Origin: Micractinium sp. NFX-FRZ
Taxonomy: Eukaryota > Chlorophyta > Trebouxiophyceae > Chlorellales > Chlorellaceae
Direction of reading: 5' to 3'
DNA length: 64,000 bases
Assembly (NCBI GenBank): GCA_029339195.1
Contig: JAPTJF010000303.1
Location: 1-64,000 of the forward strand
Each line of letters begins with the position of its first letter. The stretch's first letter is position 1. The notes under the pieces were generated by a model. The model was given only the letters and a program-made list of their open reading frames with translations. It was not told the origin of the DNA and searched no databases. A program made the position numbers and the translations under genes. Below, piece by piece: positions 1-64,000 of this stretch.

Positions 1-220
1 CATACAATAGCGGGAGTAGTACCGGAGGTATACAGGGTACAGGGCAGGGGAGCGCGGCCTCAGGACCAGGCAGGCCGTGCCGGGCGGGGTGCAACGCGCT
101 GAAGGAGGAGTGGCGAGCCCGAGCAAAGACATGCGCCACAACTTGAGGCCTGCTTGAAAGCCGCAGCAGCGGGAGGTGCATGGGATCAGGCGCCGGCCTC
201 CAGCAGAAGGGCAAGGCTCC
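1..220. other. 3' flank of the DEG1 gene
   Basis: Short GC-rich stretch downstream of the DEG1 stop codon. No TTACA (reverse TGTAA) signal is visible, so the transcript end probably lies outside the window. No gene is seen. Confidence 0.5.
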
Positions 221-3200
221 TCATGCGCTGGCCTCCAGAGTGATTGTCACGTGGTCCTTGCTGTCTGCCCGCAGCACCTCCACATCCAGCTGCAGTGGGG
301 AGGAAGGGGAGACATGGGGTGAGGAAGGAAAAGAAGCAATTAAACAACCACACGCAGGCAGGCAGGCAGGCAGGCAGGCAAGCGGGTCGAGGAGGCAGCA
401 GCAGCCGCAGCACCCCCGCCGCCGCCGCTGCCGCAACAGCTGCTGCAGCAGCTGCCATAGCAGCCGGCTCCAGTGGGGGCCGGGGCTAGACACGCAAGCG
501 CTGGTGGCACCACTGGGATAGTGTTCACAACAACTAAAGCCGCCACCGCTTGTGGTGGGATGTAGGGTCCTGGTGCACTGCTTTTGGCCCCCCAAATACG
601 TTCTTGCCCAGCAGGCGTCTGCTTCTCCGCCTGCTGCTGCTGCTGCTGCTGCTGCCGCCGCCGCGCATCTGCTGTGTGCTGCAGACTAAGGGCTGAGGCC
701 GACTTTGTGTGCTCCCTGTGTGCTCCCCGCCAGTTCCTTCCCGCCCCGCCCCCTGCAGCCCCACTGAACCAAACACTGCGCTCTGCCTCCACCCTGCCCA
801 TCCCCTCGACACCCATCAACCCTCCACCCTCGCACACACCCTACCCCCCGTGCACCTTGTCCCCCACACCCTGCCCCCCGTGCACCTCGTGCCCCACACC
901 CCGCGCCTCAGTGCACCTTGTGCCCCCGCCCCGCCCCCCAGCACACCTTGTCCCCCACATCGCTCTTGTCCAGGATGCGGTACAGGTCGGAGGCGGTGTT
1001 GATGCGCTTGCCGTTGATGCTGAGGATGATGTCACCCAGCACCAGCCTGCGCAGCATGGCACAGCACGGCACGGCACAGCATGGCCAGCATTGCAGGGGG
1101 GAGTGTGTGCATGCCATCGACCGCACGTGGACCGAGCCTCTTTTGCCTGCAGGTTACTCATGCCGCACATCCAGCAAGGCGAGGCGGCAGGTGAGCTGCG
1201 CAGGGCACATCCAGGCAGCAGCAAGTTACTAACCAAGCACAGCAGCTGCTCAGGCAAAGCAGGCCAGCTCACCGGCCGTACTCGTCGCGCGACGAGCCCC
1301 GGATACCGGCCTTGGCTGCGGGCCCGCCGTCGCGCGCGTTCAGCACCAGCACGCCATTCACGCCCAGCTGCTCAACTGCAGGCCAGTCAAGGGTTGAGCG
1401 GTGGAGGGCTGGGGTGAGATCCTAGGCTGGGGTGAGAACCTAGGCGGGCTGCGCTAGCGCACCCAGCCAGAGCGCACAGGGCGGGCTGGGGGGTGTCTCG
1501 CCCAGCGGTCCGGTAAGGCGAGGGGTGGCAACAAGCTTCCTGCGTACGTTGCTGTATGCACGGGGAAAGAGGCTGCCTGTGGAGGGCGGCACCTGCACCC
1601 CGCCACAGCCCACGCTTCATATGCCACGCCCGCCCCAACACCCGACTGGACCCGAAAGAATCCTTCCACCCACCCACGCACCCGACTGGTCGGGCGCAAA
1701 GCTGATGCCCATGATGGGCCGCACCACCTTGCCGTACTTGATGATCTGCAGCGGGGGAGCGGAAGTGCAGCAATGTGCTTTCATTAGATACTGATACTCA
1801 AGTGCATCACGGGCCGCACCACCTTGCCCTAGATCTTGATGATGCGCGGCGGGGGGCACAAGAATAGGTAGCAACAGACTCACTCTGTCCACTCAATCGT
1901 ACAACGCACATGTCCATACCGGCTGTGCCAGCCAGCTGGCAAGTCCGGCCAGCCAGCCAGCCAGCCAACAAGGCAGCCACAGCCAGGCCACATGGCCAGG
2001 CCAGGCAGCATGGCCCGAACCGCAAGGGTGTGAGCAGCCGTTTTTTCAAAACCTCCGCACCTGCTCCACGCTGCTCTTGACCACATCCACTGGGATGGCA
2101 AATCCCACGCCCGAGCTGGCGCCCGAAGGGGAGTAGATAGCTGCGGGGAGTGCAGGGCGGCGGCGGCGGCAGCAGGAGGGCGGTTGGGCAGGCGGTTGGG
2201 CACAGGGCGCCAGGGAACAACACACCAAGGAATAGTGTAGCTGGGAAGCAGGCAGGCTGAAGGGGCGGGGCAGGGGCAGGGCGGCGAGGCTGTGCTTACC
2301 ACCGTGGCAGCAGCAAGCCACACCCACCCACCCACCCACCCACCCGTGTTGATGCCAATCATGCTGCCGCCGCTGTCCAGCAGAGGGCCGCCGCTGTTGC
2401 CTGCGAGCGGGGGGCGGCGTGCACGAGGGCGGCGAGGCAGGGTGCGTGATTTGACGTGCTGTGGCTCATGCTGTGGTTGCCACGCTGTGCTCCTGGGGCA
2501 GTGTTATGTGGCTCTATCCATATGCTGAGTACCCACCAAGACGCGTCCCACCAAATTACCTGGGTTGATGGCCGCGTCGGTTTGAATGACGTCCTGGATG
2601 GGCCGCCCCGTGCTGCTGGAGCCGATCTCACGTCCCGTGCCGCTGATCACGCCTGCGGCGGGGGCACGGCAGAGGGGCAGAGGGCTGGTTGTCGGGGGCA
2701 GCACTGTGTGGTGGTGGAGGTGGTGGAGGTGGAGGGGGCAGCACCGTGTGCAACAAGCAGCGCCCAGTGGCCAGAGCGCTTTCCCAACCACCCGGTTCCG
2801 CTGCGCGAATGCCAGGGGGCATTGGGCTGGCTCAGCCTGGCCCAGCCCAGGCCTGGTCCAGGACCCACACCATCCACAACACCCAAGCTCACCCACGATC
2901 AGCATGCTGTGGCCCCCCAGGCCAAACGGCACATACACCTGTTGCACCTCTGGCAAGGCGGCAGGCCAGCATGCCGACACGGTGTATGAGACCTGCAGCA
3001 CACCACTGTTACAGAGCTCACCCACGGTCAGTGTGTGGTCCAGGCCGAAAGGGTTGCCGATTGCGTACACCTTCTGCCCCACCTCCAGGTCGCTCGAGCT
3101 GCCCAGCCGCAGCGGCGTCAGGTCCTGCAGAGCGGGCAGCAGGCAGCCGGGGGACACCACAGTCAGGCGGGCAGAACCATTGCGCACCGTTTTCGTTGGA

Positions 3201-5328
3201 CGCCCATGGCAAGCAGGCAAGGAGGCAAAGTGGGAAGGGCAGGCAGGGCTGGGCCGTGCACGAGACGAGAAGGTCATTTGTTGCAGGAGCTCACAGTGGG
3301 TTTTGGCAAGAGCTCACAATGCCCAGAGGATCCATCTTCAGCACTGCCACACATTTACCGCCGTATCCCCCCGCAACTCTCGGGACCCATACACCACGCA
3401 AGTGCCGAGCTCGCCATGCCCTTGGGGTCCAGCTTCAGCACCGCCACATTTCCTGGTGCCACACATTTCCTGGCCTCATCACGCCAACACCTCTCAAGCT
3501 CATACCCCTGCCAAAGGCACTCACCATGCCCTTGGGGTCCAGCTTGAGCACCGCCACATCCTTGTCCTTGTCATAACCAACCACCTTGGCAGGCTGACCC
3601 TCGCCCGCCGACAGCGTCACCTGCAGCGAAGCGAGGGGGAGGGGAAGGCGGGCTTCAGAGGGTGATGCGGGGCGGCGCTGGCAGGGCGGAAGGGGAATGG
3701 GCACCACTGCCCATGGCACCCGGTCTTATGAGATGAGTGCTCACTCGCAGCAGCGCCTGGGCTGCCAGTGCCCTGCCTGTGCACAGACGCCGCTGGCATC
3801 CCGAACTTGGATGCCCCATTTGGTTGGATGGTTGGAAGAGGGTGGGCGCTGGCCCAGAGTGGCAGGGGCAGGACCGCCGTCCCGCTTCCCGAACGTGCGG
3901 CCCCGTCGTGCGCGCGTGCCCGCCCGCCTCTCAACCGGCCCCCGCAGTGCAACTGGCAGGCGGGCGGGTGGAAGGCCGGTGTGTGGCAGCCCAGGATCCG
4001 CTGACCCATGCGTGTTGCTGCGCTCTGCCTGTACTTGCCAGCACTCTTAACCCCCTACCCCACCCCACCCCACCACCACCACCACAACTAGTGGGTAAAT
4101 GGCAGGCGAGCAACCAGAGTGGTGCAGGCTACCATAGTTCGACCCTCTCCAGCGCACACACTCACCAGCACGTCGGACGCCCCCCGGATCACATGATAGT
4201 TGGTCACAATGTGGCCCTGGGAGTCCCACACAAACCCTGAGCCAGGAAGGGAGGGAGGAGGCGAAGGGAGAAAGAAACGGGGATGAAGGAGGGAGGTGGC
4301 TGGCCGTCACGGTGTAACCCTGGGAGTCCCACACAAACCCTGGGCCAGGGGTAAGAAAGAATGGAGGCGAAAATAATGGGGCACGTAGCTGGTTGTCACG
4401 GCGAAACACTAGGAGTCTCATACACAGCGTGCAAGAAACAGACGGGCAGGGCGCTGGGACCCACGCCTGACTGGGTGGGGCACACGGGCCCGGCCAATTG
4501 GGAAGCCGTGTACACACAACACACACTGCGCAGTTATTAGGTTGTAAGGGGAGGCGCCTGCCGGCGGTACCGCAGGGCCTCACCTGACCCCTCCCCCTGC
4601 GGTATCTCCAGCATGTCCAAAGTGAAGGCATCCCGCCTGCGGCAGGGGCAACACGGGAGGCGGGTGGTGACACAGTGTGCGTGGGCAGGCAGGGGCGAAG
4701 GGAGTGGGCAGCAGGAGGGGTCCAGCCAACAGCGCAGTGGTGCGCAACAGCAGGGCTCGAGTGCGGGATCACTCCAGAGGCTGTTGCAGCAAGACGCCCT
4801 CTCCCGCCTTCCCCTCCCCGGCGGCTCGTGAGTGGGCATCAAATAGCTGGCAGGCATGACAGCCGGGCCGGAGCGCGCGCCACGCCGCACAGGCACGAGG
4901 CAGGCAGGCGGGCAGGCGGGCAGGGGGAGGGCGGCGGCGCACCGTGTGGTGAGGCTGGTGATGTAGACAACAGCGTTGCGGCTGCGCTGGAACAGCTGTA
5001 TGGTGTTCTTCTCATCCTGGGTCAGCACAGCACGCGCCTGCGCCACGTCCAGCGGCGTCCCCAGCAGCAGCGGCGCGGCTGCGAGCGCGGCCAGGGCCGC
5101 TGCCAGGGGCCGCTGTGCATGGCGGCGCCACCATGGCTCCTCAGGGGGCTTCCGCCCCTGCTGCGGCTGCTGCTGCTGCTGCTGTGGTTGCTGCTCGGAC
5201 CCCGGCCGCTGTTGGCAGCGCGTCACGAGGCGCTGGCGCGGGCGTGGGGCGCTGTCGGTGCTAGGTGTGCGGGGCAGGGAGCTCAGGCTGGCAGCGCCTG
5301 CAGGGGAGCCGAAGAGCAGGCTGGGCAA
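221..5328 (-). CDS. DEG1: Chloroplast DEG1/HtrA-type serine protease
   Basis: Trypsin-like ATP-independent protease with one PDZ domain, predicted in the thylakoid lumen, where the DEG1 family degrades damaged photosystem proteins. Exons chained by phase (minus): 5328-4943, 4636-4584, 4236-4166, 3620-3525, 3124-3022, 2652-2560, 2400-2344, 2140-2061, 1745-1682, 1375-1273, 1046-947, 289-221; 1275 nt, 424 aa, close to Arabidopsis DEG1. The first ~105 residues look like a bipartite transit peptide: a Q-rich stretch, then an arginine pair, a hydrophobic Ala/Leu segment and an AQARA cleavage-like site. The triad is visible: His in NYHVI, Asp in DKDVAVLKL, Ser in GNSGGP (the codon before N spans an intron). 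The family signatures [25 protein letters not shown] and [16 protein letters not shown] follow, then PDZ ([15 protein letters not shown]). Several introns contain decayed exon-edge copies. Divergent from the UGPase gene. Identity is very secure. Confidence 0.95.
1799..1850 (-). repeat. Decayed copy of a DEG1 exon 5' edge
   Basis: Resembles the start of exon 1745-1682 ([13 protein letters not shown]) but carries a stop in place of the tyrosine region; it lies upstream of the real exon. Confidence 0.75.
3305..3452 (-). repeat. Two decayed copies of a DEG1 exon 3' edge
   Basis: The end of exon 3620-3525 encodes [10 protein letters not shown] followed by GTGAGT. Recognisable copies of this edge occur downstream in the intron at about 3408-3452 (near-identical) and 3305-3350 (more decayed). 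Confidence 0.85.
4296..4437 (-). repeat. Two decayed copies of a DEG1 exon 5' edge
   Basis: The start of exon 4236-4166 ([16 protein letters not shown]) recurs upstream at about 4296-4347 ([14 protein letters not shown]) and more weakly at 4383-4437. Confidence 0.85.
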
Positions 5329-5977: not shown

Positions 5978-8900
5978 ATGGCCGCGCTAGCACCAGCACC
6001 CGCAGCTCCCGCCCAGGAGGTCATCGTGAGTGCCCAGGGCGCCGATCCGAGGCGTGTGGTCTGCTTCGCGATGCGCCAGGACTCACGCGCCTGGACTCTG
6101 CCGCTGGCTGAACCGCCGCCAGCGGCGGCGCTGGGCGCGCCGCCACCCTCCTGCCTCACCCGGCTCCCCTGCCTCCCCTTGCCTCCCTCTACCTCCCCAC
6201 CCAGCCCTGGGAGCTGTTTACCGAGAAGATGACCAAGGCGGGGCTGAGCCAGGCTGCGCAGGATGCCTTCAAGATGAACTATGAGCAGCTGGTGGCGGGC
6301 GTGACTGGGCTGGTGAGGAGCAGCAGCAGCCGCACTTTGCACCTCTGGGCTCCTGCATGGCTGTGCCCTGATGCCGCCCTGTGTGGAAGCCACAATGCGC
6401 CACGCCCGTGCGGTCGGTGGGAGCAGGAGCCTGGCTTCGCACCGGGTGTGCTGCTGTGAGGAGCGGCCGCACTGCTGCTGGCAGGCGCCCGGGGCGGCAC
6501 TCGTACTGCCACTTTCCTGCGGGCCGCCCAGCCCGGAGCGCAGCCCAAACCTGGCGAGCTGCCCAAATTTTCCCAGGGCAGCGCCGCCTTGCCTTGTGTG
6601 CCGTCTGCGGTGCCCGCATGCTTGCCTCCATGCATGTGCTTTCACATCCCCAGCCAGTTCTCGGGCCCCCGCAAAACACTCGGCCAGCACGTTGTGCTGC
6701 TGCTGCAGTCTGTGCTGGCTTGGCTGGGCTGCAAGTGCTCTCAATGACATTCTTCTTTACTAGTGCAGGTGCTGGAAGCTGACATGGGCTTGGCACAGCA
6801 GCCTTCTGACATCGGTTTGCATGCCTGTTATTGTTTTCCCTGGCCCTTTTGTTGCAGGTGCCAGATGCCGACATCGGCCCGGTGCAGGAGCTGCCTTGTT
6901 TTTTCCACCTCCCTTGCATGATATGCACTGTTTTCCTTACCCTTGTGTGCAGGTGCCGGACGCCGACATCGACCCCGTGCAGGAGCTGCCGCGCCTGGAG
7001 GAGCTGCACACCAAAGAGGGCGCCGACATCAAGGCAGGCGACTGATGAGAGGGCTTGGGCTGTGACATGCTGTGTGTGTGCTGCGGCGGGGTAGGATGGT
7101 GGGATGGGCAGGCGCGGGCTTGGGCGGCTGGCTGCGGGTCGCGGTGCTGGCGGGCATGCCCCAGCCTGGCATGGCCTGTACATGGGCTGCCCCCTTGTGT
7201 GCCTCATCACACAGAGAGGAACCGCGTCACTCCTGCAGGAAGGGCTGTGCCAGCCTGCTGTGCTGAAGCTGAACTTTGAAACGTTTGCTGTTGGTCCTGG
7301 CTGATTACTGTGTTCTGCTGCCGTGCCCCCCCTGCAGGAGCTGCTGCGGCAGACGGCCGTGCTGAAGCTGAATGGCGGGCTGGGCACCAGCATGGGTCTG
7401 GAGCGTGCCAAGTCGCTGCTGGAGGTGGGTGGGCTGCTGAAGGTTTGTTAAGTTGCCACCTGTTTGAGGAGGTAGTGATCAAGAAGCAAGGGGGTGGCCA
7501 GGATCAGCAGCAGCAGTGGGGCAGCAGGGTTGTCTGCTTGCCACTGGAGCACCTCCCCACACACACATGTTGCGCTGCAGGTCAAGAACGGCAAGACGTT
7601 CCTGGACCTGATTGCCGAGCAGATCAAGCACACGCGGCAGAAGTATGGTGAGCATCCACGCGTGTGTTGTGATCAACAGGGCGCAGGACTGAGCAGGAGG
7701 GCCGCTGTGCATGTGGGCATTCAGCCAGGACACACACCCCCCACCCATCACACAACCTTATCACTGCTGCCCCCCTGCAGGCTCCAAGGTCCGCTTCATC
7801 CTCATGAACTCCTTCTCCACCAGCCAGGACACCAAGGACTACCTGAGGAAGGCGCACGGGGGTGAGCGGGGGGGGCGAAGAGGGGGTGTGCAGGGAGGGG
7901 TGACAGAGAGGGGTGACAGCGGGGCGACAGGGGGGCGTGACAGAGAGGGGTGATAGGGAGGCGGAGAAGGGTCAAAGAGAGGGCAAGGGTTCGGCATGGG
8001 ATGAGGGGGTGGGGCATGGGGCAGCGCCGCCCCGTCCCCCTCCTGCCATGAAGCCTTTCCATGGATGTGTTGCAAAGCGTTTTGGAGCCTTCAGCAGTGT
8101 GCTTCACAGGCTCAGGCGACCTGATCTCCTTTGCTGTGGGTTCTCCTTTGCTCCGCTGCTCTCCTTTACCCTGTGTTATCCCTTGCTTTGTGGTCTGTTC
8201 CTGCAGACCTGCTGGACGAGCCGGACGTGGAGCTGGTGCAGAACCTGCATATGATTGTAACCAGCTTGTATGTTGAATTAACTTATACTCTATGTTCCTG
8301 CAGACCTGCTGGACGAGCCGGACGTGGAGCTGGTGCAGAACATGAGCTGCAAGGTGGATGCAGGCACCATGAAGCCTGCCAGCTACGAGGCCAACCCAGA
8401 CATGGAGTGGTGCGGGGGCGGGCGGTGGGTGTTAGGGCGGGTGCAAGGGCGGGTGCAAGGGCGGGCAGTGCGTGCAAGGGCGGGTGCAACGGCGGGTGGT
8501 GCATGCAGGTGGTGCGTGCAAGGGCAGGTGCAAGGGCGGGTGGTCCGTGTAAGGGTATGGAAGAACACACCAGCCCTGCGGCTCCGCTCTGGGATGGTGC
8601 AGCTCGGCAGCGGAAGCGGCCCAGGCGCGGGGCGCCCGCCAGTGTGCATGCCCTGGCCCCATGCCTCCCACATTTCCCGTGCCTCTGTGCCGCGCACTGC
8701 TGTGCCGCGGCATGCATCACTGCAAGGCTCTCACACTGCAACTTACAATGCCGCCGCCTCATGGCGCAGGTGCCCCCCCGGCCACGGCGACATCTACCCC
8801 TCACTGCTGGGCAGCGGCATGCTGGACCGCCTGATTGCAGGTGGGCGGGGGAGGGGGACGGCATCTAAGGGGTGGGCACACGGGGAGGGTCCTTTAAAGG

Positions 8901-9620
8901 GGTGATGTATAGTGGTGGGCAGGAGGCAAACGTTGTCGAGGGGTGGGCAGGGCGATCGGGGCTGGGCACAGGCGACCACACGGCATCTTGCTGAGGACCT
9001 GCCCCGCTTCGTCTCCGCACATGCGCAGCGCTGCTGCACGTCTGCTGGGAATGCGCCTGCCCTGCTCTCCCTGTGCCTGACAAAAACCAAGGCACACTTT
9101 CCACGCCCTCCCCTGCAGAGGGCATCAACTTCCTGTTTTGTCAGAGCCTCTACATGACAGATGCAACAATCTCTCTGCCAATATCCGTCCCTCCCCCGCA
9201 GGCAGATCACCTACCTTTTGGTGACCAACACCCTGAAAACCTGGGTCTCTACAATCAACTCACTGTTACCACGCTCTTCCCCTCCCCCCACCCCCCACCC
9301 CCCCAGACGGCATCACCTACCTGTTTGTGAGCAACAGCGACAACCTGGGGGCCACGCTGGACCTGGACCTGCTGGCCTACTTTGCTGGCTCCGGCAAGGG
9401 CTTCCTCATGGAGGTGGGTTCTTAAGAGGGGGGGGAGGGTTTCCTTCTAGGTTTTCTGAAGAGTGGCAGGGCTACTCTTGCGGGGTTGGGCAAGAGCTTC
9501 ATGGGTGCAACGGGAAGGGGGCTAACAGGTGGGGAGGTTGCTTGTCAGGAGAAATCAGAGTTGTGGGGCGCCAACCTGCCAGCACACGTCGCCGGCTGCG
9601 GCAAAGGCTTCCTCAGGGGG

Positions 9621-9675
<55 letters not shown>

Positions 9676-9703
9676 GGGGGGCGGGGGGGGAAAAGGGTTC
9701 CTC

Positions 9704-9734
<31 letters not shown>

Positions 9735-9866
9735 GTGCGGAGGGTTGGAGGTGGGGAGGGTTTCTTGGGTTGTCTAAAGGGTGGCAGGGCTACTCTGGCT
9801 GGGCTGTACTCTGGCTGGGCTGTACTCTGGCTTGTACTCTGGCTGGGCTGCGGCAAGGGCTTCCTC

Positions 9867-9906
<40 letters not shown>

Positions 9907-12622
9907 TGGGGGGGGGGGGGGGGGGGGGGGGGGGGTGGGGACGGCTTCTTGGGGGTTGTCTACGGTGAAACAGGGCACCGTAGTTTGCTGGGAACCGGCA
10001 AGTGGTTCCTCATGGAGGTGGGTGGGGTGCGGGGAGGGTGGGAGAGGTGAACAGGTTTCCTGCTTAGTTGGGTGCACTTGACCTGCTGCCATGCTTGCCG
10101 GCTCCGGGCAGGGCTTCCTCATGGAGGTGCGTGGGGGCAGAGGAGGTGGGGAGGTGTGCAGGGTTTTGGGCCGAAGGGGAGGGGTTCTCGTGTGTAGGTG
10201 CCAGGCGCCAGGAGCAGGAGCGTGTGCACTTCTGTGAGCACTACTGCCACATTGCCCAGTTGCTTCAGCGCCTGCCCCGGCTGTCCCACGCACGTGCAGG
10301 TGTGCGAGCGGGAGCCGAGCGACAAGAAGGGCGGCCACCTGGCACGGCGCAAGGCGGACGGGCGGCTCATGTGAGTGCCACAGCGGTGGTGGGGGTGGTG
10401 CATGGGGCGGCTGCTGGGTAGCCAGCGGAGGGGGACATGCCTCGTCTCGCTACTTACCTCTACTTGTAACTTGCAACTTGTAACTTGTAAGTTTTATCCC
10501 CCCCGCAGGCTGCGTGAGAGCGCGATGTGCCCCGACGGCGACAAGGACAAGTTTGAGGACATCGCGCTGTGAGTGCTGCGCTGTGCTGTGCCGTGCTGTG
10601 CCGTGCGGTGCGGTGCAGTGTTGTTGCCTCCTATTTGACCTTCATTCCATTGCAATAGGCAGTCAAGTCATCTGCGGGTCAGACATTCATCCAGCCCCAT
10701 GCATGTGTGAGCCTTACCTGCTGCTTTCCTTTCCCCATCCCCCCTGACTGGCTGCAGCCACAAGTTCTTCAACACCAACAACCTGTGGGTCAACCTGAAG
10801 CAGCTCAAGGACACCCTGGCCGCCAGCGGTGAGTGCCGCCCTGCTGCCGCCCGCCCTGCTGCCTGCGTGGGCCGCGTGTGCGGGTATGTGCTGCGCAGCC
10901 ATGCCTCACTTGCTTCTGCCCTCTCGCCGTGGCTGAGATTGCGCCGCCCGCCATTGCCTGGCCCTCCTGCAGGCGGCGTGCTGAGGCTGCCGCTCATCAA
11001 GAACAAGAAGACAGTCAACCCGCGCGACTCGTCCACGCCCCCCGTCTTCCAGCTGGTGAGCTCGCCCTGCCTGTCTGTCGTATGGTGATTTGCGTAGCCC
11101 CTTGCTCACCCTGCCTGTCATGTTGGTGGAACTGAGTAGCTGCCTGCTCAACAGCTCCTCCAGCCTGCAACCTGTGGTGAAACTGTGCAACTTGTCACTC
11201 TTGAGCTCAGCTCACCCTGTCTCTTGCGAAACTGCGCAACCTGTTGCGTGCGGCTCTGGGCTCCACTCCTAACAACCCCCATGCGTCCTGCTGCCCGTAG
11301 CCACCCGGAAAGCAATCTTATTTCTAAGTGTCCTGCTGCCCTTGTGCTGTGGCTGCAGGAGACGGCCATGGGCAGCGCCATCGAGTGCTTTGACGCGGCA
11401 GGCGCGGTGGTGGTGCCCCGCTCACGCTTCGCCCCCGTCAAGACCTGCAACGACCTGTTTGCGCTGCGCTCGGGTGCGTGGCATGCCAGCGGGCAGGGGG
11501 ACGCAACACAGGGGGCAACAGGGCTGAGCTAGAAGGCCTGTTTGCGCTGCACTCGGGTGCGTGGCGTGCCAGCGGGCAGGGGGACGCTACACAGGGGGCA
11601 GGGGGCAGAGCTATCAGGGGAGGAGCAGGGCCGGCCGCTTGGCAGGCCACATTGATTGGGCCACTTATTTATAAGGCGGCAAGGGTCTATATGTGTGCGC
11701 ACCATTTCCGTTGGTTACACTGAACCAACCGTCAACAACCCACGGCACCCCTGCAGATGCGTACAAGGTGACTGAGGAGAGCACGATCGTGCTGGCAGCC
11801 CCCGCCCCCCCGCTCATCAAGCTGGACGACAAGCACTACAAGTGAGTGTACTGCAGATCGGCGGCGCCCCTTGGGGATGGGGTGTACTGCCTGGGGCCAG
11901 GGCGTACCGCCTGAGCGTGCTCATCAAGCTGGACGACAGGCACTACACACGCTTTGAGCGGCAGTGTACGGCTGGTTGGGCCAGTGGCGCACTACCATAG
12001 TGCGGGGGTGGGGTGGCACTGCCTTTGTTCACATGTGGGCCACCCGTCCCCCGTCTCCTCCCACCCCGCCTTGCCCATCACGCCTTCCCGCCTCCCACAC
12101 TACACCTCAACCCTCTCCCACCCCACCCCTCTCTGGCAGGCTGGTCGACCAGCTGGAGGCCCTGGCCCCCGAGGTGCCCTCCCTCTTCCACTGCAAGTCG
12201 CTCACCGTCAAGGGGCCCGTTCGCTTTGACGCCGGCGTGGCAATCCGCGGCGCCGTCACCCTCGTCAACAGTGAGTTGTTGTTACGCATTGTGTTTTTCA
12301 CACGAAGGAGCTAACAGGACGTGGTTGGGCTGGTAAACGTGCCTCTAGTGGCCAGCGGGCAGAACTGTGAGTGGCAGCAGATGTGCGGGAAGCGTGCCAG
12401 GCACAGCACAAGCAGTGCATTGTCTCCTTCCCCATCACCCCCTACTCACCGCCCTCGTGCCAGCCTGACCTCACGCCCTTACGCCAGCCTACCCTCCAGC
12501 CCAGCCTCCGCCCCTGCCCTCTGCGCCTTCGCCCCCCCGCAGGCGGCGACAAGCCGGTGGCTGTGCGCGGCCGCACATTTGAGGACGTGGAGCTCGACGT
12601 GGAGCTCGACCTGAGTGCCTGA
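5978..12622 (+). CDS. UGP: UDP-glucose pyrophosphorylase (UTP-glucose-1-phosphate uridylyltransferase)
   Basis: Makes UDP-glucose from UTP and glucose-1-phosphate for sucrose, cell-wall and glycolipid synthesis. Seventeen exons fit by phase: 5978-6025, 6205-6312, 6953-7033, 7338-7424, 7581-7647, 7781-7861, 8304-8409, 8770-8840, 9307-9413, 10300-10370, 10509-10568, 10758-10828, 10973-11055, 11359-11473, 11757-11841, 12140-12270, 12543-12622; 1452 nt, 483 aa, normal for the family. The nucleotide-binding loop is AVLKLNGGLGTSMG; other hallmarks are FILMNSFSTSQDT, PPGHGDIYPSL, VSNSDNLGATLDL, FFNTNNLWVNL and a C-terminal left-handed beta-helix tail (SLTVKGPVRFDAGV). The N-terminus is short and shows no clear transit peptide, suggesting a cytosolic enzyme. 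The intron after 7033 must use a GC donor because an in-frame TGA follows. Introns hold many exon-edge copies and long poly-G. Confidence 0.95.
8199..8260 (+). repeat. Near-perfect copy of a UGPase exon 5' edge with its acceptor
   Basis: The acceptor CTGCAG plus about 43 nt encoding DLLDEPDVELVQN repeats at 8304, where the real exon begins. It is the least decayed copy in the UGPase gene. Confidence 0.9.
9616..9731 (+). repeat. Very long poly-G tract in a UGPase intron
   Basis: More than 100 bases that are almost all G, with a few interruptions. A second tract lies at 9869-9940. Length is likely to be uncertain in any assembly. Confidence 0.9.
9869..9940 (+). repeat. Second poly-G tract in the same intron
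   Basis: About 70 nearly uninterrupted G residues, following a copy of the exon edge in the same way as the first tract. Confidence 0.9.
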
Positions 12623-13287: not shown

Positions 13288-15413
13288 TTACTGCCCCCTC
13301 CACCACCGCAGCCTCTCTCTTGACAGCCCTTCCAGCACAGAGGCCGCACCCACCGGCGCACCCGCGGGCTGCTGCTGCTGCTGCCCTGCCTGCCCCGCCT
13401 GCTGTGCCTGCTGTTGTGCCTGTCCGCTGGACAGCTGCGCCTCCAACTGCGCCAGCAGCACGGATGCCGCATCCTGCCGCCGGCCCTCTGCCCGCTCCGC
13501 CCGTATGCGCTCCTCCTCGGCTGCGGCAGCGTGGGTTGTGTGGGCACACAGTGTGAAGAGATGCCGGGTCGTGTGGGCGCACAGTTTAAGGAGATGCCGG
13601 GTTGTGTGGGCACACAGTGTGGGCAGACGACAGGGTGCAGCCCATCGGGTGCAGTAGGCAGGGTGAGGAGCAGCAGGCGGAGCAAAGCAAGGTTTTAACA
13701 CGAGAGCGGGTGTACAGGGCGGCAGAAAGCGGCCGCTAGCAAAGCAGGGGCACAGGCCAGGCAGCAGGCAGCGCGTCGGCAATCACTTCCCCCCCAGCCC
13801 ACCTGCAACAGCTGCTGCTGCCTCCTTCTCGAGCCCATCGTAGTACAGCTTCTGCAGCCCGCCCTGCACAGCACAGCAGGCGCAGCACAGCACAGCACAG
13901 TAGAGCACAGAGCGTCCTTGTATAGGTAAGCAGCAGGGCTCCAAGGGCGGAGTCAGGCAGCGCAGCAGCTTCAGCGGCACATGCAGTATTGCTGCCCGCC
14001 CCACCCCCGGCCAGCGGGCGTGCTGCGACATTGTCAGCACAGCACAGCATAGCACAGCACAGCACAGCGCAGCGCACCAGCCCCAGGCCTACAACAAGTC
14101 GCTACCGAAATGCCAGGTTGGGCAGCACAGCGCACCTCAGCACAAGCACAGCACAGCACAGCGCAGCACAGCAAGCGCAGCACAGCGCACCTGCACCAGG
14201 CCCAGCCCCACGATTGTGGCCACCCCGAATGCCAGGTTGGGGGGCGGCCAGGTGGTGGTGCGGATGCATTGGTGTGCTGCACGCAACGCGGTAGGTTGTG
14301 GGCGGGCGGCAAGGGGGAGCAAGAGACGGTGTGATGCTTTATAGGCAGGTGGGCAAGCAGCAGACAGTCCGTCAGGGACACGGGCCTTCTGCCCTGGCAA
14401 AGTGAGCGGAAGATAAGAGGTCCATGCAAGTGCACCCAGCTCCCTGCCCACCCGCGCAGCCCTCCCTTCCACCTGCCCGCCCGCCCCGCCCCACCCCGCC
14501 CCACCTGCAAACACGCCGCCCACTGCCAGCCCTCCTGCCGCCGAGTCGATCAGGAAGCTGCGGTGCCCGCGGTACACGCCTGTCATCACTTCCACTGAAA
14601 AGAAGAGAAGGGCCAGCCCGCCCAGGGCCAGCCCCCGACGGTTTGCCGAGTCTAGCACCCGAAAGGCGCGCTGCAGAGTGAAGGAGTGGGATGCGCCGGG
14701 GGCTGCATCCGCAGGGTGATGAGGGAGGGCGGGCAGGGTCAGGGGCACAGGCAGGGGTGAGAACGGGCAGGGCAAGGGCAAGGTTTCATGTTCGGGTGAA
14801 AGCAGAGCATGGATGCAATCACATACATGCTGGAAGGTTTGTGAACCATGTTCCTCCACAAACAATAATGCATGCAAAGGCGCAGACGAGGAAACGCGCA
14901 GGCCGTGCCTGCCGGTCTACCCTGCATCAGCAAACCTGTGCGTACCCTGCCACACACCGCCCAGCACTGCGCTCACCCAGCCGCTCTCCCGCCAGATCCG
15001 AGTATTGAGACACGCCGCCGTGCACCGCCCCCGCGGCAAAGCCAGGCAGCACAACAAGCGGCCAGTCGGCCAGCCCTTCGGGCATCGGTGGCGGCTGCAG
15101 GCAGGGGGCGCACGGCGTGGAAACAAGGGCATGTCACGCGGGCCAGGCAATTGACTACGCCAGTGGCTCTGCACTTGTGGTGGGCGGGCACCGGCAGGCG
15201 GCAACAGCAGCAGGAGCAGGCAGCGGAGGCGGCGGCGGCAGCAGCGGCGGCGGCGGCGGCAGCAGTGCAGTGGAGCGCACGGCGATCCGCGCTCACAATT
15301 ACCTCTTCCCCCTTCTCCAGCATGCCGACCACATAGCGCAGCACGCGGGAGACGGCCGCCCAGCCACGCTCAGGCTCGGCGTCTGCTGCAGGCGGCGACC
15401 CTTTGCTGCTCAT
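13288..15413 (-). CDS. Tim17/22/23-family membrane protein, TIMMDC1-like
   Basis: Exons (minus): 15413-15297, 15094-14977, 14702-14505, 14276-14191, 13863-13803, 13520-13288; 813 nt, 270 aa, with phases matching at every junction. The middle holds glycine-rich hydrophobic segments typical of the Tim17 fold: PGFAAGAVHGGVSQYSDL, then GLALGGLALLFFSVEVMTG followed by VYRGHRSFLIDSAAGG, then NLAFGVATIVGLGLVQGG and KLYYDGLEKE. The order and the VYR..ID..AGG pattern resemble TIMMDC1 and its plant relatives, which help assemble the membrane arm of mitochondrial complex I; this is inference from motif layout, not a proven orthology. The C-terminus (from AAEEERIRAERAEG) is a charged, then Gln/Ala-rich coiled-coil-like tail of about 90 residues. 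Convergent with UGPase. An import translocase subunit is the alternative. Confidence 0.65.
13535..13625 (-). repeat. Tandem ~33-bp repeat in the Tim17-like gene
   Basis: Three imperfect units containing GTGTGGGCACACAGTGTG and GAGATGCCGGGT, located in the last intron just upstream of the last exon. Confidence 0.8.
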
Positions 15414-18303: not shown

Positions 18304-18308
18304 TGTAA
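18304..18308 (+). terminator. TGTAA polyadenylation signal for the Cys-pair gene
   Basis: TGTAA 184 nt after the stop at 18120. Confidence 0.5.
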
Positions 18309-45200: not shown

Positions 45201-48200
45201 TCGCGATGCACCAAGTGGGGGGGGAGGACGCGCTGAGCAAGGGCGTCGCGCAGGTGCACCCCTCCTCATGTGAGAGTCAAGCCACCATTCGCCTTTCCTT
45301 CCCTGGTTTTGAACGTGTGCATGCCGATGGATGGGGTGCGTAGCCGTGGCATCGGGCAGGTGTGAGCCAACTGGGTGAGCCTTGCCTCCTCGGTGAGCCA
45401 ACCTTTCATTTCTGTTCTTGGACTGCTCGTGTGCATATGCGCATGCGGTGGTGTGAGGTTGCGAGGGCGTCGCGCAGGTGCACCCCTCCTCGTGTGAGAG
45501 TCAAGCCAATCTGTTGCCACTCTTGTATGTGAATGCATGTGCGCGTGCGGCTGCTGGGATGTGCAGCCAGTATGGTGCGCACCGCCGCCTTTTCAAGTGT
45601 GGTTGGCTAGGGAGCTGAGGAGTTGTACTTGTGAGCGGGAGGGTGTATGGGGTGGTGTCGCATATGGCAAATGTGAAGGGAGGCGGCGCGCAGGTGCAAC
45701 CCTCCTGCGGGGAAGCATTTTCTGGACAACCTGACCAGCCTGACCCATCACTCCACCTGCCCACTTGCTTGGCAATGAAAACTGTGCTTCCTTGCGTCTT
45801 CTGCTATTGTTTCTCCGGTTGCAGGCAAGGTGATGAAGTTTGTGGAGAAGCCGGGGCCGGACGACCTGGGCAGCCTGCGGCGGGACGCGGACAAGGCGGC
45901 GCCTGGTCAGGAGTTCCTTGCCAACATGGGCATCTATGTGTTCAGGCGGGAGGCGCTGCTCAAGTGAGTGCACAGGGGTGCTGGCTTTGCGTGAGGCGCA
46001 GCAGAGAGTTGGATGCCACGGGCAGTGGTGGAAACACAGTGAAGCAGCGGGGCAGGGGGCGGGATGTTTGCTGGCGAGCTGGGGCATCTGCATGCTCGGG
46101 AGGTGGGGGCTGCCTAAGGCAGTCTCACTTAGGAGGTGGGGACTGCCTTAGTGAGACTGCCTTGAGCAGTGGGCATGGGCAGAGCTGAGTAGGCCTGCAT
46201 GCAGCGCGCGCCTTCCTCTTCTGACCATCGATTACCGCTCCTGTCTTCATGCAGGCTGATGGACCGCCCGCAGCTGGTGCACATTGGCCACCACGGTGGG
46301 TGGGCGGCTGGGTGGGTGGGTGGGTGGGTGGGTGGGTGGGTGAGGCTGGTCTGGGTGGGCACACATCTGTCGCCACGTTCGGTGGGTGGGCGGGCACACA
46401 TCTGTCGCCACGTTTGGTGAGTGGGTGGGCACAGATTCGTCACACGTGTGGTGGGTGGGCAGCCGCATCCCTGTGATTTGGTTGGCGGGGCTGGCAACGG
46501 CGGCGGACAGTGCCGGGCAGCCGCGGCAGCAGCCTGCGTCGCCACGCTGGCATGCAAGCCCCCCTCCGGCTGACGTTGACCCCCTGCATCCCTACACAAC
46601 ATGTGTGTGCCGCTGCAGTGGTGCCCAATGCGCTGGCCCAAGAGATGAAAGTGTATGCTTACCAGCACGAGGGGTACTGGCACGTGAGCGGGAGGTTGGG
46701 CAGCCAGACAGGTGTTGTTTGTTGGCTGCTTGGGGAAAGACAGGCGGAGGGCTGCTGCTGCTGCCAATGGCCAGCCGTAGCTTAGTGGTGCGGTCGGGTG
46801 CTGGCATGCCGGTTGTACAGCGTGCGGACCTGGCTCTTTTCTTCGACTGGATTGGCATCATCAACCCCTTGCTGGCCCCCTCTTGCAGGACCCGGGGACC
46901 TCTTGTCCTGTGACCCACACGCGCACCGCATTTTCAACCATGCATTTCTTGACTGCTGGTGTCCTTGCGTGTTGCTCCCGCAGGATGTGTCCAGCCTGAA
47001 GGACTTCTTTGAAGCCAATCTGGACCTGGCGGACCCAGACAAGCTCATGGGGGCGGTGAGGCGGGGCGGGGTGGGTGGGTGGGGGGAAGCACGCGGGGTG
47101 GAAGAGGGGGGCATGCTAACGGCGCCACTGCGGGGGGGGCCTGGAGGGATGCGTGGTGGGGCGCCAAGGGGCGCAGCCCTGCCTGCCTGCCTGCCTGCCC
47201 GCCCGCGTTATCCCCATCACCCACTGCACGTTCCTACTTAGCGCCGTCCGACCCTCACCGTTACCCACTGCATCTCCCCACTTGACGCTGTCCGCCCCGC
47301 TGGCTCCCCTGCCCTCCCGCAGATGGAGCACATGGTGGGGATTCAAGGCCCAGCCGTCCAAAGTCCGCTTTATCCACTGCAGATACGTACTCACCAACTT
47401 GCACTAACGCAAGTCACATATTTCCCCTCCCCCCCCACTCACCCACACACACGCAGATGGACCACATGGTGGGGCGCAAGGGCACCGCCCTGCCATCCCA
47501 CCCACTTTACCCACTGCAGATAGATACTCAGCAACTTGCACTCACGCATTTCCCCTCCCTCCCCACCCACCCACTCACCCACAGATGGACCACATGGTGG
47601 GGCGCAAGGGCACCGCGCTGCCGCCGGCGCTGATGCACAACGTGGAGCTGGACCGAGTGATTGTGGGGGACGGGTCGGGTGAGTGCTGCCCGCCAAGCTG
47701 TAGCAGTTGGGCGCATAGGTTGCGGGGGCAGGGGTTGGTGGGTGGAGGGGTGGGGAGGCGGGCAACACAAGATCCCGCTGCAGCGTGCCGGCACCTGTTG
47801 CGTCCTCCATGCCACCTTACAATCACCAATCATTGGCACCGCCATCCTCCTCTCCACCTCCTGCCCCCAGTGCTGGTGGTGTGCTGCACGATCAGCAGCA
47901 GCGTGCTGCGGAGGCTGCCCACATACATTTCTACCATGCTGCACACACTGAAGACAATCCCTATTCGTTTGCTCTTCCCCTCCTGCAGTGCTGGTGGGCT
48001 GCAAGGTCAGCAGCAGCGTGCTGGAGGAGGCAACCCACACATACATTTCTACCACTCAACACAGACAATCATGCTTGCTCTTCCCCTCCTGCAGTGCTGG
48101 TGGGCTGCAAGATCAGCAACAGCGTTCTGGGGGAGGCGTCCTACGTGGGGCGGGGCACCCACATTGAGAGCTCGCTGCTGCTGGGCAACGGGGCCTACAT

Positions 48201-49277: not shown

Positions 49278-49420
49278 GCTGGCGACAGCTCAGGCCAGCC
49301 GGCGCCAGCTGGCGGCTCGGGTGGTCGGCTGAGCTGGCGACAGCTCAGGCCAGCCGGCGCCAGCTGGCGGCTTTCCGGGTGGCCGGCTGAGCTGGCACCA
49401 GCTGGCGTTTGTGCCATCTG
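49275..49420 (+). repeat. Tandem repeat starting at the AGPase-like stop codon
   Basis: Units starting TGAGCTGGCGACAGCTCAGG begin at 49275 (the stop itself) and 49330; a partial third begins at 49388. Confidence 0.88.
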
Positions 49421-60200: not shown

Positions 60201-63200
60201 GCACACGCAATTTCCAAGCCAGCGCAGCCACCCTCGCCCTCGCCACCTACAACATGATGCATTTCAAGCGTGTGTCCTCCCCCACCTTGCGTGCCGCCTC
60301 CGCCTGCTGCTTGAAGAACTGCACCAGCGATCCGTTGGCGGCCCCGTAGTTGGGGTAGACAACCACCTGGCCCCGCAGCCAGCAAGACAGCTGGCGCTGC
60401 ACGTTCTGCGGCAGAGGGGGCGAGGCAATGGCGGCAGTGCACAATGATGAGTGGGGTAGTCCAGACACACAACCGTCGGCTCTAGCAGCCAGCAGGGCAG
60501 CTGGCGCTGCACGTTCTGCGGCAGCGGGGAGTGGGAGAGCCATCGACAGGATAGCACAGGGTGAATGAGGTGGTTCAAACACACGCAACCACCTGGCACG
60601 GCAGCAGGAGCGGGAAGAGCAAGCTAACCACCCCTTCAGTGCACACTCACTGGGGCCTTGAACCGCTCGTCACACAGGATGATGGCGCCATAGTCCCGCC
60701 GGTGCCGGATGACGCGCCCCACAGCCTGCAGCCAGGGGCAGCCAGGGCAACCGAGGCCGGCAACAGTGTGTCAGCGGTGAGGGGTGGCAGGCAGTAATGC
60801 ACGTGGAAGGCTGCTCCTTGCGGTATGGCCCCAGCAGAATGCGGTGCACAGGCGTGCAAGCAGCGCAGCAGCGCAGCGCATGCGCGGCGCAAGAGGTTTT
60901 GTCCCAATGCCAGCTCAGCGCTGCGTCAGCTCAGCTCAGCGCGTTAGCTCAGCGCACCTGGTTCACCGCCCGCATCGCACTCTGGGAGTACCACTGGTCG
61001 CCGCTCATCCCCACCGGGGGGGCCGTGCCTGCTGAGCTCACTGCTGCGCCTGCTGCGCCAGCGGGGCGCTTCTTGCTGGCCAGGGATCGCGCCTCATTGA
61101 GCGACTCCTGCTTCAGCCGCACCTGCTCCGTTTTGGGCGGGAAAGGGCGGGACAGGCACAGCGGGGGTGCTGAAATACACAACTCCCACACAACCGGCCC
61201 GTGAGGATTGACAGCTCAAGTGCTTCCCTCCATCTCCGCCCAAGGGCCGCGCTTTTCCTTTTCCCTTCCTGTCGCCGCCGCTTACACCTCGGGCATTGCT
61301 CGCTCACCTTGGCGGTCCGCGTTCAAGGGACCAGAGGCTGCCAGCAAGCACCGCCCCGACCACACAGACAACAACCCACACCGTCCCCCACTCTAAATCG
61401 GGCATCACGGCCCAGCCTGCGCACCCTTTCTGCCTTATCATGCCCTCTCCTCCCCTGCCCCGCATCCCCCCACCTGTTCTGCATGACGATCACCGCCCCC
61501 TGCAGCACCACACAGCCTCCCTCCCCCCACTATGAACAAGGCACGGCTTGCCCACCTTGGGGTCCATCTTCATTGGATAGGGGATGCCTGTGAGCACCAC
61601 CGCCCGCCCCATGGTGTCGCTAAAGTCCAGCCCCTCGCTGGCCTTGCCGCTGCAGCAGGTGGGGCGGGAGGGCCAGGGAGGCGGGGGAGGTGTGAAACAA
61701 AGCAGGCGGGCGTGCGGGGCGGCAAGCTCCCATGTGTTCGGATGGTATTTGTGATGGGCAAGGGAGTGAAGTCTGCTGTATTTGCTGTCAACAGAGCCCC
61801 CTACTGCATGGCAATGCCCGCTGGGTCGCCATCAGCCCACGTGCCAGCAAGGTCGTCGGCGGCTGCACTGACCTAACACCCCTTCCCCCTGCAACAGGCT
61901 GTTGGCACACCCCCACCATGGCACACACATACCCTCACGGCCACGCACCGTGTGACAGCCAGGTGAAAGGCGGCTCCATTCAGCCAGCACCCCTTCCCCT
62001 GACAGAGCTTGGCAACACCGGCACACACCGGCATGCACATCGAGGCAAACACACACACGCAGCTCTCAACAGCCCACGCACCGTGTGACGGCAAAGAAGA
62101 CGGCCCCGTTGTATGCAGGGTTGGCCAGCTTGGCTTTGAAGTCCTCGGAGGCGGCGGCAAAGGCGGCCGACTCCCGAGGCTCCACCACTGGCTGCTTGCT
62201 CCTGCAGCAGGGGAGAAGGATGGTGCTTGGGCAGGGTGTGGGATGAAAGGTGGGGACCTGCCCTAGCGTTGCGGGAAGGGAGCCGTCTCCAACACACACA
62301 CACACACACACACCTGTCGCTGCAGTTCGCCCGAACCAACCCCGCCCCGCCCCGCCCCGCCCCCAACCCAGCCCCACCCCACCCCAGCTCACTTTGCAAT
62401 GCGCTCCCACACGCTGGGGCCGCCGGAAGCGGGCTGCTGCTTCCACACGTTGATGCAGCTCTGCAGGGGGGACACAGGCACCAGAGCGTGGTCGGCCCAG
62501 CACAGATCGGGTCGGGCGTCAACAACAACCCTGAAAACAGAAGGCTGCAGTTATGCTCACTCACGCTGCCCGCTCTTGCCGCCGGGATTCCTACCCACTG
62601 CCTGCTCACCCCCTCAGAGGCACACCACCCCTGCACCTCCCCTCTCTTCCCATGCCCCTCACTCAATGGCACATACCTTCAAGCCCTGGCCTCTCCCCGC
62701 CCCTCCCCGCCCCTCAAAGACTGCCGGCTCCCCTGGGAGGCTGCTCCCTCCCCTCCCCTGCCCTCCCCTCAGACCCTGCCCCCGCACCGTGAGCGCCGCG
62801 TATGATGTGAAGAAGACGAGGAGTCCGTCGGGGATGATGCGCGCAAAGTTGACCAGGGCCATGCCCAGGTCGGCCCTGGGGGCAGGGAGGGAGGGGGAGG
62901 GACGGGCGAGAGGGCGTCAGGCGAGGCAGGCGAGACGAGACGGCAGGGGAGCAGCGATGGGGGATGTGGCAGAAGGGAGATGGGCGGAGGTGGTGGAGGG
63001 GTTGGGGAAGTGGGGTCCCGTGGGGTCAGTGCTTGGGCAGGACGGTACCGCGGTACCCAAGCGAGCTTGCCCTGCCCAGGCCCTGCCCCTGTACTGCCTG
63101 CCTCCCCGTACCTGTACTGCATGTTGTCCCGGTTCTGGTAGCTGCTGTTGAGGGGCTGGCCACCGGGGCCCGCGGGCACCACACCCACCCAGACCTGCAG

Positions 63201-64000
63201 CAAAGAGGGGAGGGTGGGAAGGAGAGGCGGAATGGGAGCGGCGGCAGGGGCCACGCCCTTCAAAGCCCCAAACCAGTGCGATGACCGACAGGCAATGTTG
63301 CATGCCATGCCAAAATGAAACAATATATGACGACACAAAAACATTCAAGCGAAGGAACAAGGCACCCAACACCTCCCACGTGTGTGTGCACGTGAGGGTC
63401 CTCCAGCCTCACTGGGAAAGCCGCCTGCCTGCCCACCCCCGTACACCCAACCCACAGCCCTCCGGCGCCATCATACAAGGGCGAGCGTACCTGCTCTCGT
63501 GAGATGACGTGAGGGTTCTCCAGCCCCCACTGGGAACGCCACCTGCCTGCCCACCCCCCTACAACCAACCCACAACACTATCAGCAATATCCAATTGATC
63601 GTGCCCAAAGGGGGAGCGTACCTGCTCTCGCGAGATGACGTGAGGGTTCTCCAGCCTCACTGGGAAGGGGATGCCCAGCTCGTGGGCAAACGAGTCCAGC
63701 GGGGACAGCGTGCCGCTGGTGAGCAGGATGGAGTGGACCTGCGGGGGCGGGAGGGAGGCACAGTGTGAAGGGGTGGGTGGGTGGGGGAGGCCGGAGGGGT
63801 GGGAGGGGGAGAGGCAGATTGTGTGATTAAGGAGTGAAGGCATATGGCGATGGACCTGCGGGCAGGGGAGGGGCGTGGCTGGGTGGGTGGGAGGCAGGGG
63901 GCGTGTGCTGGGAGTGATGCGGTTGGCTTGGGTGGTAGGATGGCCAGAGGGGCTGCCGCTGGTGAGCAGGATGGAGTGGACCTGCGGGGGCGGGAGGGAG
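57286..64000 (-). CDS. RTEL1: RTEL1-type DNA helicase (XPD family) with harmonin-like domain and RING, 5' part outside window
   Basis: Iron-sulfur superfamily-2 helicase that resolves D-loops, telomeric T-loops and G-quadruplexes. Only the C-terminal 1039 residues are visible, in exons (minus) 63738-63622, 63194-63112, 62875-62788, 62460-62393, 62201-62082, 61649-61556, 61122-60958, 60725-60651, 60405-60286, 59980-59866, 59665-58668 and 58362-57286; 3120 nt, in phase. Helicase motifs: [56 protein letters not shown], then [18 protein letters not shown] (motif VI). The order and wording fit RTEL1 better than XPD or FANCJ. After the helicase comes a Gln/Ala-rich linker, a helical block matching the harmonin-N-like fold ([17 protein letters not shown]...[15 protein letters not shown]), another Q-rich linker and a C-terminal RING ([21 protein letters not shown]). 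The ATPase motifs lie upstream of the window. Confidence 0.92.
60478..60530 (-). repeat. Copy of an RTEL1 exon 5' edge
   Basis: Copy of the start of exon 60405-60286 ([10 protein letters not shown]) with its CGCAG acceptor, upstream in sense orientation. Confidence 0.85.
63375..63540 (-). repeat. Two copies of an RTEL1 exon 3' edge
   Basis: Exon 63738-63622 ends [13 protein letters not shown] and donor GTACGC. Copies with the same donor lie at about 63490-63535 and, more decayed, 63375-63425. Confidence 0.88.
63955..64000 (-). repeat. Copy of an RTEL1 exon 5' edge at the window edge
   Basis: Nearly identical to the start of exon 63738-63622 (VHSILLTSG) with its CCCGCAG acceptor, lying upstream. 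Confidence 0.85.

Follow-up and report, generated by a model that had tools for sequence, protein, structure and literature searches.

How do the introns of a green alga come to hold recognizable pieces of the exons beside them, and why do these pieces lie almost always on one side? This question is raised by the first 64 kb (positions 1 to 64,000; hereafter the window) of contig 303 (JAPTJF010000303.1, 78 kb) of Micractinium sp. NFX-FRZ, whose assembly (GCA_029339195.1) comprises 66 Mb in 838 contigs. The original prediction, made from the letters of the window, held that introns of at least six genes on both strands contain copies of the adjacent exon edge together with its splice site, and that copies of a 5' edge always lie upstream of the exon and copies of a 3' edge always downstream. 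In this study, we examined 304 kb of DNA, consisting of the window and 240 kb from five other contigs of the same assembly (GC 65% in the window and 65.4% over the 304 kb), and we confirm that exon-edge copies occur in introns and lie nearly always on the side from which splicing can remove them.

Results

Exon-edge copies and their side

Queries spanning the splice site were aligned with the flanking introns at 854 boundaries, the right side being upstream for copies of a 5' edge with its acceptor and downstream for copies of a 3' edge with its donor. At a score of at least 20 there were 82 right-side and 11 wrong-side matches, compared with 5 in the introns of other genes and 5 in reverse-complemented introns; at a score of at least 25 the counts were 54 and 5, with 1 and 0 in the respective controls. 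Aligned in this way, the 304 kb show a right-side excess, and wrong-side copies are not equally common. The 82 right-side copies are spread over 67 boundaries and 63 introns in 23 of 50 genes; one event is counted twice, because genes 30 and 32 of contig C150 apparently represent a single recent duplicate. Predicted genes scoring below 12, exons shorter than 15 nt, introns not exceeding 50 nt and alignments with a low-complexity score of at least 2 were left out before counting, as were alignments that do not cross the boundary (14 right-side and 3 wrong-side at score 20).

The window alone gave 36 right-side and 4 wrong-side matches at a score of at least 20, and the DNA outside it, which had not been seen when the prediction was made, gave 46 and 7. 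The right-side copies of the window are divided between genes of the plus strand (19) and the minus strand (17), so that both strands are affected as predicted and a strand bias is ruled out. Six more right-side copies in the window, beyond the 36, were confirmed by individual alignment: two at the truncated exon of RTEL1, one at the UGPase edge at 6953, two at the UGPase exon at 9307 and one at the RTEL1 exon 60286-60405. As to the wrong-side matches in the window, two of the four belong to a predicted 15-nt exon (10112-10126) judged to be a copy itself, one lies at a 61-nt exon with donor-side copies and one scores exactly 20; outside the window, three of the seven fall at one exon judged to be misannotated. 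Taken over all 11, five stem from a pair of exons likely to be copies in their own right, and the other six comprise five with identities of 0.60-0.73 and one of 0.74 at the 61-nt exon bearing donor-side copies. When two exons judged false post hoc (exon 10 of gene 2 in the window and exon 7 of gene 37 on contig C240) were dropped, the ratio of right-side to wrong-side copies became 79:6 at score 20, 52:1 at 25 and 33:0 at 30. The side rule thus stands, and its claimed freedom from exceptions holds for strong matches only.

The same asymmetry is seen with queries confined to the exon (866 exon-intron pairs, score 20). Matches to 5' edges lay upstream in 19 cases and downstream in 5, those to 3' edges in 3 and 25, alignments reaching both edges in 1 and 3, and those to exon interiors in 20 and 15. 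The corresponding upstream and downstream counts were 0 and 2, 1 and 2, 0 and 0, and 12 and 14 in the introns of other genes, and 2 and 3, 4 and 3, 0 and 0, and 14 and 13 in the reverse-complemented introns of the same gene. Edges are therefore far above the controls, whereas interiors show no clear excess (35 matches vs. 26 and 27). Moreover, counts that make no use of annotation also favour direct copies, with 33 direct repeats and 1 inverted repeat within 700 nt in the window at a score of at least 24, and 198 direct and 21 inverted pairs lying 30-1500 nt apart in the 304 kb at score 20.

Step size and placement of the duplications

The copies tend to lie about 100 nt from their originals. 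With one copy at 664 nt left out, 66 nearest copies remain, and 41 of them have a copy-to-exon distance of 80-130 nt; if distances were uniform and subject to the same detection, the expected share would be 0.258 (p 6e-10). This statistic retains both exons that were dropped post hoc. The peak appears separately in the window (17/30, p 4.5e-4) and outside it (24/36, p 3e-7), and bias of detection is ruled out as its source by a 6,000-draw simulation that placed copies at uniform distances in the real gene structures and applied the same search. Exact 12-mer pairs have a second maximum at 80-120 nt for intron-intron and exon-intron pairs, which is weak in intergenic DNA: intron-intron pairs numbered 14 at 60-80 nt and 30, 26 and 12 in the next bins, and the same four bins held 1, 8, 11 and 1 intron-exon pairs, 0, 5, 6 and 2 exon-intron pairs, and 3, 6, 7 and 7 intergenic pairs. 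The intron-only peak rests on this histogram, since BLAST returned no intron-only pairs below 50 nt. The occurrence of 12-mer maxima across region classes indicates that local duplication is general in the sample, and exon edges may be special only through what selection lets survive.

This is in agreement with the location of the 198 local direct repeats, of which 44 are wholly intronic and 27 wholly intergenic. Duplication beyond exon boundaries means that direction can come from selection, so that the directional process of intron expansion that had been proposed keeps its side rule and has no need of a directional mechanism. The 63 introns with a copy have a median length of 369 nt and the 370 without one a median of 243.5 nt, a difference of about one step, in a comparison uncorrected for the greater room that longer introns offer for a match.

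Anatomy and decay of the repeats

The structure of the repeats was examined in 75 pairs with at least 78% identity, 50-260 nt apart; tandem repeats of shorter period exist outside this set. The repeat is 30-90 nt long in 65 of the 75 pairs. The commonest gap between repeats is 40-60 nt (23 pairs), and in only 7 pairs do the two abut or overlap. The original prediction had envisaged short tandem duplication spanning the boundary; short local duplication made silent by splicing remains the best reading, whereas plain head-to-tail duplication agrees poorly with most cases, and as the sole mechanism it is weakened. Tandem structure is nevertheless present among the best preserved pairs, as the spacer matches a flank in 7 of 12 single-spacer pairs with at least 90% identity, several of these coming from arrays of three.

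The spacers are AT-rich, with a GC content of 0.549 against 0.638 in matched non-coding DNA, below all 200 controls. Their flanks are also AT-rich (GC 0.596), the difference between spacer and flank having a p of 0.08, and intergenic spacers are AT-rich likewise. A branch-point effect is argued against by 254 copy-free introns, in which GC is 0.65-0.66 near both splice sites. The clearest young exception to tandem structure is found in UGPase (+ strand), where the copy at 8196..8247 of the 5' edge 8293-8344 is 98% identical over 52 nt at a distance of 97 nt, and the 45-nt spacer between them (8248..8292) has no detectable homology to either flank. AT-rich spacers between near-identical repeats were seen both at this site (GC 0.29) and at 48809-48866 of contig C60 (GC 0.24). 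When stretches of two spacers (the first 35 nt of the UGPase spacer and 43 nt of the C60 spacer) were searched in all 838 contigs with up to 3 mismatches, each occurred once, at its own place. The contigs include those carrying psbA/D-type plastid reaction-centre genes (C838) and mitochondrial COX1 (C837), so that organelle DNA was rejected as the source of these two stretches. A mobile-element origin was rejected too, as spacer matches between genes were only short and weak, except within one array or a duplicated locus.

The copies decay like neutral DNA, with splice sites no better kept than their neighbours. Mismatch rates at codon positions 1, 2 and 3 of the copies are 0.170, 0.192 and 0.213, and this near evenness leaves little sign of coding constraint. 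The splice dinucleotide differs in 33 of 164 cases in the copies, compared with 80 of 565 neighbouring intron bases (odds ratio 1.5, p 0.067). As the true splice site is fixed, a neutral copy site compared with it would be expected to look better kept, and the result hints at removal of competing splice sites in copies. The identities run continuously from 0.65 to 1.0 among the copies tabulated. The impression that copies nearer the exon are better preserved survives as a weak trend (Spearman -0.24, p 0.028, 82 copies): of 10 arrays, 8 have their best-preserved copy closest to the exon (in two of these as a tie), and the order is reversed at UGPase exon 9.

Copies in the genes of the window

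Exons were predicted ab initio with a self-written, self-training exon-intron gene finder, which gave 51 genes, 433 introns and 90 kb of coding sequence over the 304 kb. The names DEG1, TBL1, RTEL1 and F-box were taken from the original prediction; in Pfam, DEG1 has trypsin-like and PDZ domains, TBL1 has WD40, RTEL1 has a helicase C-terminal domain and the F-box gene has leucine-rich repeats (LRR), and the Tim17-like protein scores under the cut-off. Other genes recovered in the window are UGPase, an AGPase-like gene, a ribosomal protein with an L11 domain (RPL12), a lactate-permease-like gene and ferredoxin. Known structures align with the AGPase model over residues 35-469 of 469 and with the hand-corrected UGPase model over residues 22-471 of 483. 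Known errors of the models are that UGPase was split, the LRR gene was fused with Tim17, RTEL1 was fused with the following genes, and several copies were called exons. Copies are present in all six genes for which they had been reported (DEG1, UGPase, Tim17-like, TBL1, AGPase-like and RTEL1). The three genes said to lack them are nearly free of matches, with none in ferredoxin, one scoring 20.0 at a doubtful exon in the RPL12-like gene and one scoring 21.0 in the F-box/LRR gene, the two single matches being near chance level.

In DEG1 (- strand), alignment placed the original 5' edge of exon 10 with its acceptor at 1710..1765 and its copy in the upstream intron at 1805..1862 (distance 96, identity 0.81). 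The 3' edge of exon 5 with its donor (3501..3565) has two aligned copies, one downstream at 3388..3457 (distance 110) and one at 3313..3351 (distance 207), and the 5' edge of exon 4 with its acceptor (4203..4265) has a copy in the upstream intron at 4306..4371 (distance 104).

UGPase (+ strand) has several further copies besides that at 8196..8247. The exon edge at 6953 has an upstream copy at 6840..6905 with 46 of 51 aligned bases identical; part of this copy (6858-6881) was predicted as an exon, and the protein without it aligns there to solved UGPase without a gap. The 5' edge 7321-7372 is copied at 7222..7273 (distance 99), and the 5' edge of the exon at 9307 has two copies, both upstream, within 9095..9250. 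The 3' edge of exon 9 (9356-9440) has four copies downstream within 9466..10039. Two G runs in one UGPase intron (9616-9731, 116 nt, 88% matches; 9869-9940, 72 nt, 94%) adjoin exon-edge copies that have the same exon words in common, and may mark an error-prone stretch of the assembly. Further downstream, the 3' edge 11442-11503 is copied head to tail without spacer at 11526..11586, and the 3' edge 11812-11861 has a downstream copy at 11919..11979.

On the - strand, the Tim17-like 3' edge 14161-14241 is copied downstream at 14042..14122 (distance 119), the TBL1-like 5' edge 34164-34226 upstream at 34255..34321 (distance 93), and the 3' edge of TBL1-like exon 4 (37035-37088) twice downstream within 36877..37013. 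In the RTEL1-like gene, also on the - strand, the 5' edge of the exon 60286-60405 has an upstream copy at 60450..60535 (62 of 69 aligned bases identical), the 3' edge 62052-62110 a downstream copy at 61922..61980, and the 3' edge of the truncated exon (original within 63595-63680) two downstream copies within 63390..63536, with 56 of 59 and 28 of 29 aligned bases identical and the donor retained in the near copy.

The AGPase-like gene (+ strand) has downstream copies of the 3' edges of exon 3 (43009-43071, copied at 43205..43271), exon 4 (43727-43787, at 43907..43971) and exon 6 (45237-45284, at 45461..45508, identity 0.96), with a further exon match at 45682-45706. Upstream copies belong to the 5' edges of exon 4 (43610-43699, copied at 43506..43599), exon 5 (44719-44772, at 44614..44667), exon 12 (47555-47622, at 47427..47494, identity 0.91) and exon 13 (48065-48144), which has two within 47843..48038 at distances of 108 and 224. 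The predicted protein has 82% identity to its counterparts in Micractinium sp. CCAP 211/92 and Chlorella sorokiniana, and against both relatives the single gap consists of the four residues of a 12-nt predicted exon (47323..47334) that sits on an outer copy of the exon 12 5' edge; the position of this gap at a copy-based exon indicates that the predicted exon is false. At the end of the gene, a 55-bp tandem repeat (49266-49403) extends from the last AGPase-like codons past the stop and is one of the few duplications that touch coding sequence.

Two observations concern other contigs. On C150, the intervals 36.9-38.3 kb and 42.7-44.0 kb appear to be a recent duplicate with an offset of 5,773 bp; their two predicted genes are equal in length and score and share one exon-edge copy, and a 67-nt spacer close by is identical in both. 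Contig C1 (577 kb) has a piece of a COX1 domain (61076-61270, E 3e-15) in an open frame of 344 amino acids; with the full-length match being on C837, it is possibly a mitochondrial insertion or a fragment of a nuclear gene.

Discussion

It seems probable that the copies arise by short local duplication that is blind to exons and is then filtered by selection, so that only arrangements silent to splicing survive. In introns as in intergenic DNA, segments of about 30-80 nt would be duplicated, the copy keeping the orientation of the original and starting roughly 100 nt from its start. When a copy spans a boundary, the mRNA would be unchanged only if splicing still uses the edge joined to the rest of the exon and the copy sits in the intron. 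A copy placed otherwise would alter the exon and be lost, leaving acceptor-edge copies upstream and donor-edge copies downstream; because the step is short and exons have a median length of 109 nt, a copy on the wrong side would often land inside the exon and alter the protein. The intron would lengthen by one step, and the copy would then decay neutrally, its splice signal included. The proteins of the two relatives lack the AGPase copies. Three points are inferred: that introns grew at each event, that the side rule is a product of selection, and that the duplications were errors of repair, either the fill-in of staggered breaks or the synthesis-dependent capture of DNA close by.

Several observations weigh against this simple scheme. 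Homology spans a median of 0.44 of the distance between copy and original (106 pairs), and of 40 single-spacer pairs, 14 have a spacer homologous to a flank and 26 a spacer matching neither; together with the few abutting pairs, this low cover and these unrelated spacers indicate that a plain tandem unit does not account for every step. Duplications at exon edges outnumber intron-only ones by 16:9 at 85% identity, 12:5 at 88% and 11:4 at 90%, where blind placement expects a ratio of 0.25-0.54, in counts that are small, rely on ab initio exons and omit gene-end, exon-exon and mixed pairs. The slow change of the exon arm would account for part of this excess, and when the expectation is doubled to allow for it p becomes 0.006-0.16; exon edges may still be over-represented among duplications. 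Genes also differ strongly, AGPase having copies at 9 of 28 boundaries (gene-to-gene permutation p 0.0005), where a uniform process predicts otherwise. No copies were found on contig 30, where six genes in 40 kb have 41 introns between them, or at the 24 boundaries of the lactate-permease-like gene (21269-25985, 13 predicted exons) at score 20, which is an unexplained cold spot beside the copy-rich genes of the window. Finally, 42% of exons are shorter than 100 nt; at some of these a copy on the wrong side could have come to lie in the next intron without harm, which makes the rule less binding there. All these counts depend on gene models predicted ab initio.

The edge excess and the differences between genes leave an opening for a process in quanta of about 100 nt, in which machinery preferring exon edges would copy about 50 nt from across the splice boundary together with an AT-rich spacer of about 50 nt at each event, a scheme that we consider unlikely. 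They would also favour a coupling of duplication to exon edges through transcription or splicing (R-loops, nascent RNA or nicking at splice junctions), with boundaries as the real target and the fewer intronic and intergenic cases as a by-product. The 27 wholly intergenic repeats speak against such coupling, as do the partial explanation by the slow exon arm and the small, restricted counts, and it too appears unlikely. A stronger competitor is insertion with filler, by which a staggered break of about 50 nt would be filled and rejoined around some 50 nt of extra DNA under the same selection. The product would be an unrelated spacer enclosed by a long direct repeat that resembles an extended target-site duplication. 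The usual spacer length, the low spacer GC and the UGPase spacer without homology to its near-identical flanks speak for it. However, the two single-copy spacer stretches point to no known donor, more than half of the well-preserved single-spacer pairs show tandem structure, and the flanks are themselves richer in AT than average; we therefore regard filler as a possibility of less weight than exon-blind duplication.

Young-looking repeats around unrelated spacers, such as the UGPase pair at 8196-8247, could also be produced if old tandem arrays were homogenized by gene conversion between the exon edge and its copy, the repeats then looking young and the spacers old. The same pattern of repeat and spacer occurs in intergenic pairs, where no exon is under selection, and the identities of the tabulated copies form a continuum, which makes conversion improbable. 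A role of the copies as decoy or regulatory splice sites, raised in the original prediction, might be suggested by the AG kept in 10 of 19 acceptor-edge copies and the GT in 9 of 25 donor-edge copies by simple boundary projection. This role is disfavoured by the dinucleotide changes, which are no rarer than those of neighbouring bases even though the true site is invariant, and by codon-like constraint that is slight at most; it would seem very improbable. An origin in chance similarity, low complexity or assembly error might be suggested by the high GC content and numerous short simple repeats of the genome, and by the 11 wrong-side matches, which are somewhat above the controls. The 82 right-side copies against 5 and 5, the ratio of direct to inverted repeats and divergence of up to about 35% with indels, which is not readily an assembly error, make such an origin hardly conceivable. 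We thus retain exon-blind duplication filtered by selection as the best account.

Change of intron length without transposons is poorly understood, and here 63 of 433 introns bear a visible record of duplication in which events could be dated against one another. The side rule points to selection at the level of splicing and the step size to a constraint on the repair mechanism, and the C150 duplicate offers a place to follow the divergence of copies. If the quantal scheme were true, intron length would be built exon edge by exon edge. There is also a warning for annotation, since copies resemble exons and our gene finder called several of them as such.

The kind of duplication is known, and its scale and step size look new: among the papers listed in our literature searches, with most subscription papers outside their scope, none was seen to describe a build-up of exon-edge copies within introns or a step near 100 nt. 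Introners, described mainly from fast-evolving lineages including green algae, resemble the present case in causing pervasive intron change (PNAS, 2022, PMC9860276). Introners fall into families whose members resemble one another, and some have inverted ends or target-site duplications of 3-9 bp (PMC9860276), whereas each copy here comes from its own neighbouring exon. Many near-identical inserts were not found, as the two spacer stretches searched are single-copy and matches between genes are short and weak; nor were short target-site duplications, the direct repeats mostly being 30-90 nt.

Closer parallels exist in exonic tandem duplication, an accepted route of intron gain (PMC3443670). In that AGGT model, as here, a local duplication of exon sequence is concealed by splicing, and it differs in that an intron is created inside an exon (PMC3443670), whereas existing introns lengthen in the present alga. 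No new intron inside a former exon was encountered among our copies, which lie in existing introns, and the AGPase protein alignments have one gap, at the false exon. In the RdRp gene of potato, a tandem duplication runs from the last part of an intron into the exon that follows (Ma, Lan, & Niu, 2016, PMC4974935). The likeness is a boundary-crossing duplicate with branch site, polypyrimidine tract and acceptor; a new intron/exon structure resulted there (PMC4974935), whereas in our case the existing intron takes up the copy, and copies occur at 67 of 854 boundaries.

With regard to mechanism, small tandem duplications arise in mammalian cells through fill-in of 3' overhangs, and among insertions below 100 bp they are the commonest form that the human genome contains (Schimmel et al., 2021, PMC8355091). 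Our nearby copies in direct orientation are likewise small and local; those duplications are adjacent (PMC8355091), and ours are mostly separated by a spacer. Repair-mediated duplications or "doublets" are known from vertebrates, and in human they have proximal duplicons of median 147 bp with a mean separation of about 1.2 kb, in a set that omits pairs within 50 bp (Pace et al., 2009, PMC2671141). They share with ours the proximity of donor and acceptor, the intervening DNA, a link to double-strand break repair, and exons and splice sites among their sources (PMC2671141), and those in the present alga differ in being mostly 30-90 nt long, with a step near 100 nt and with exon edges prominent among them.

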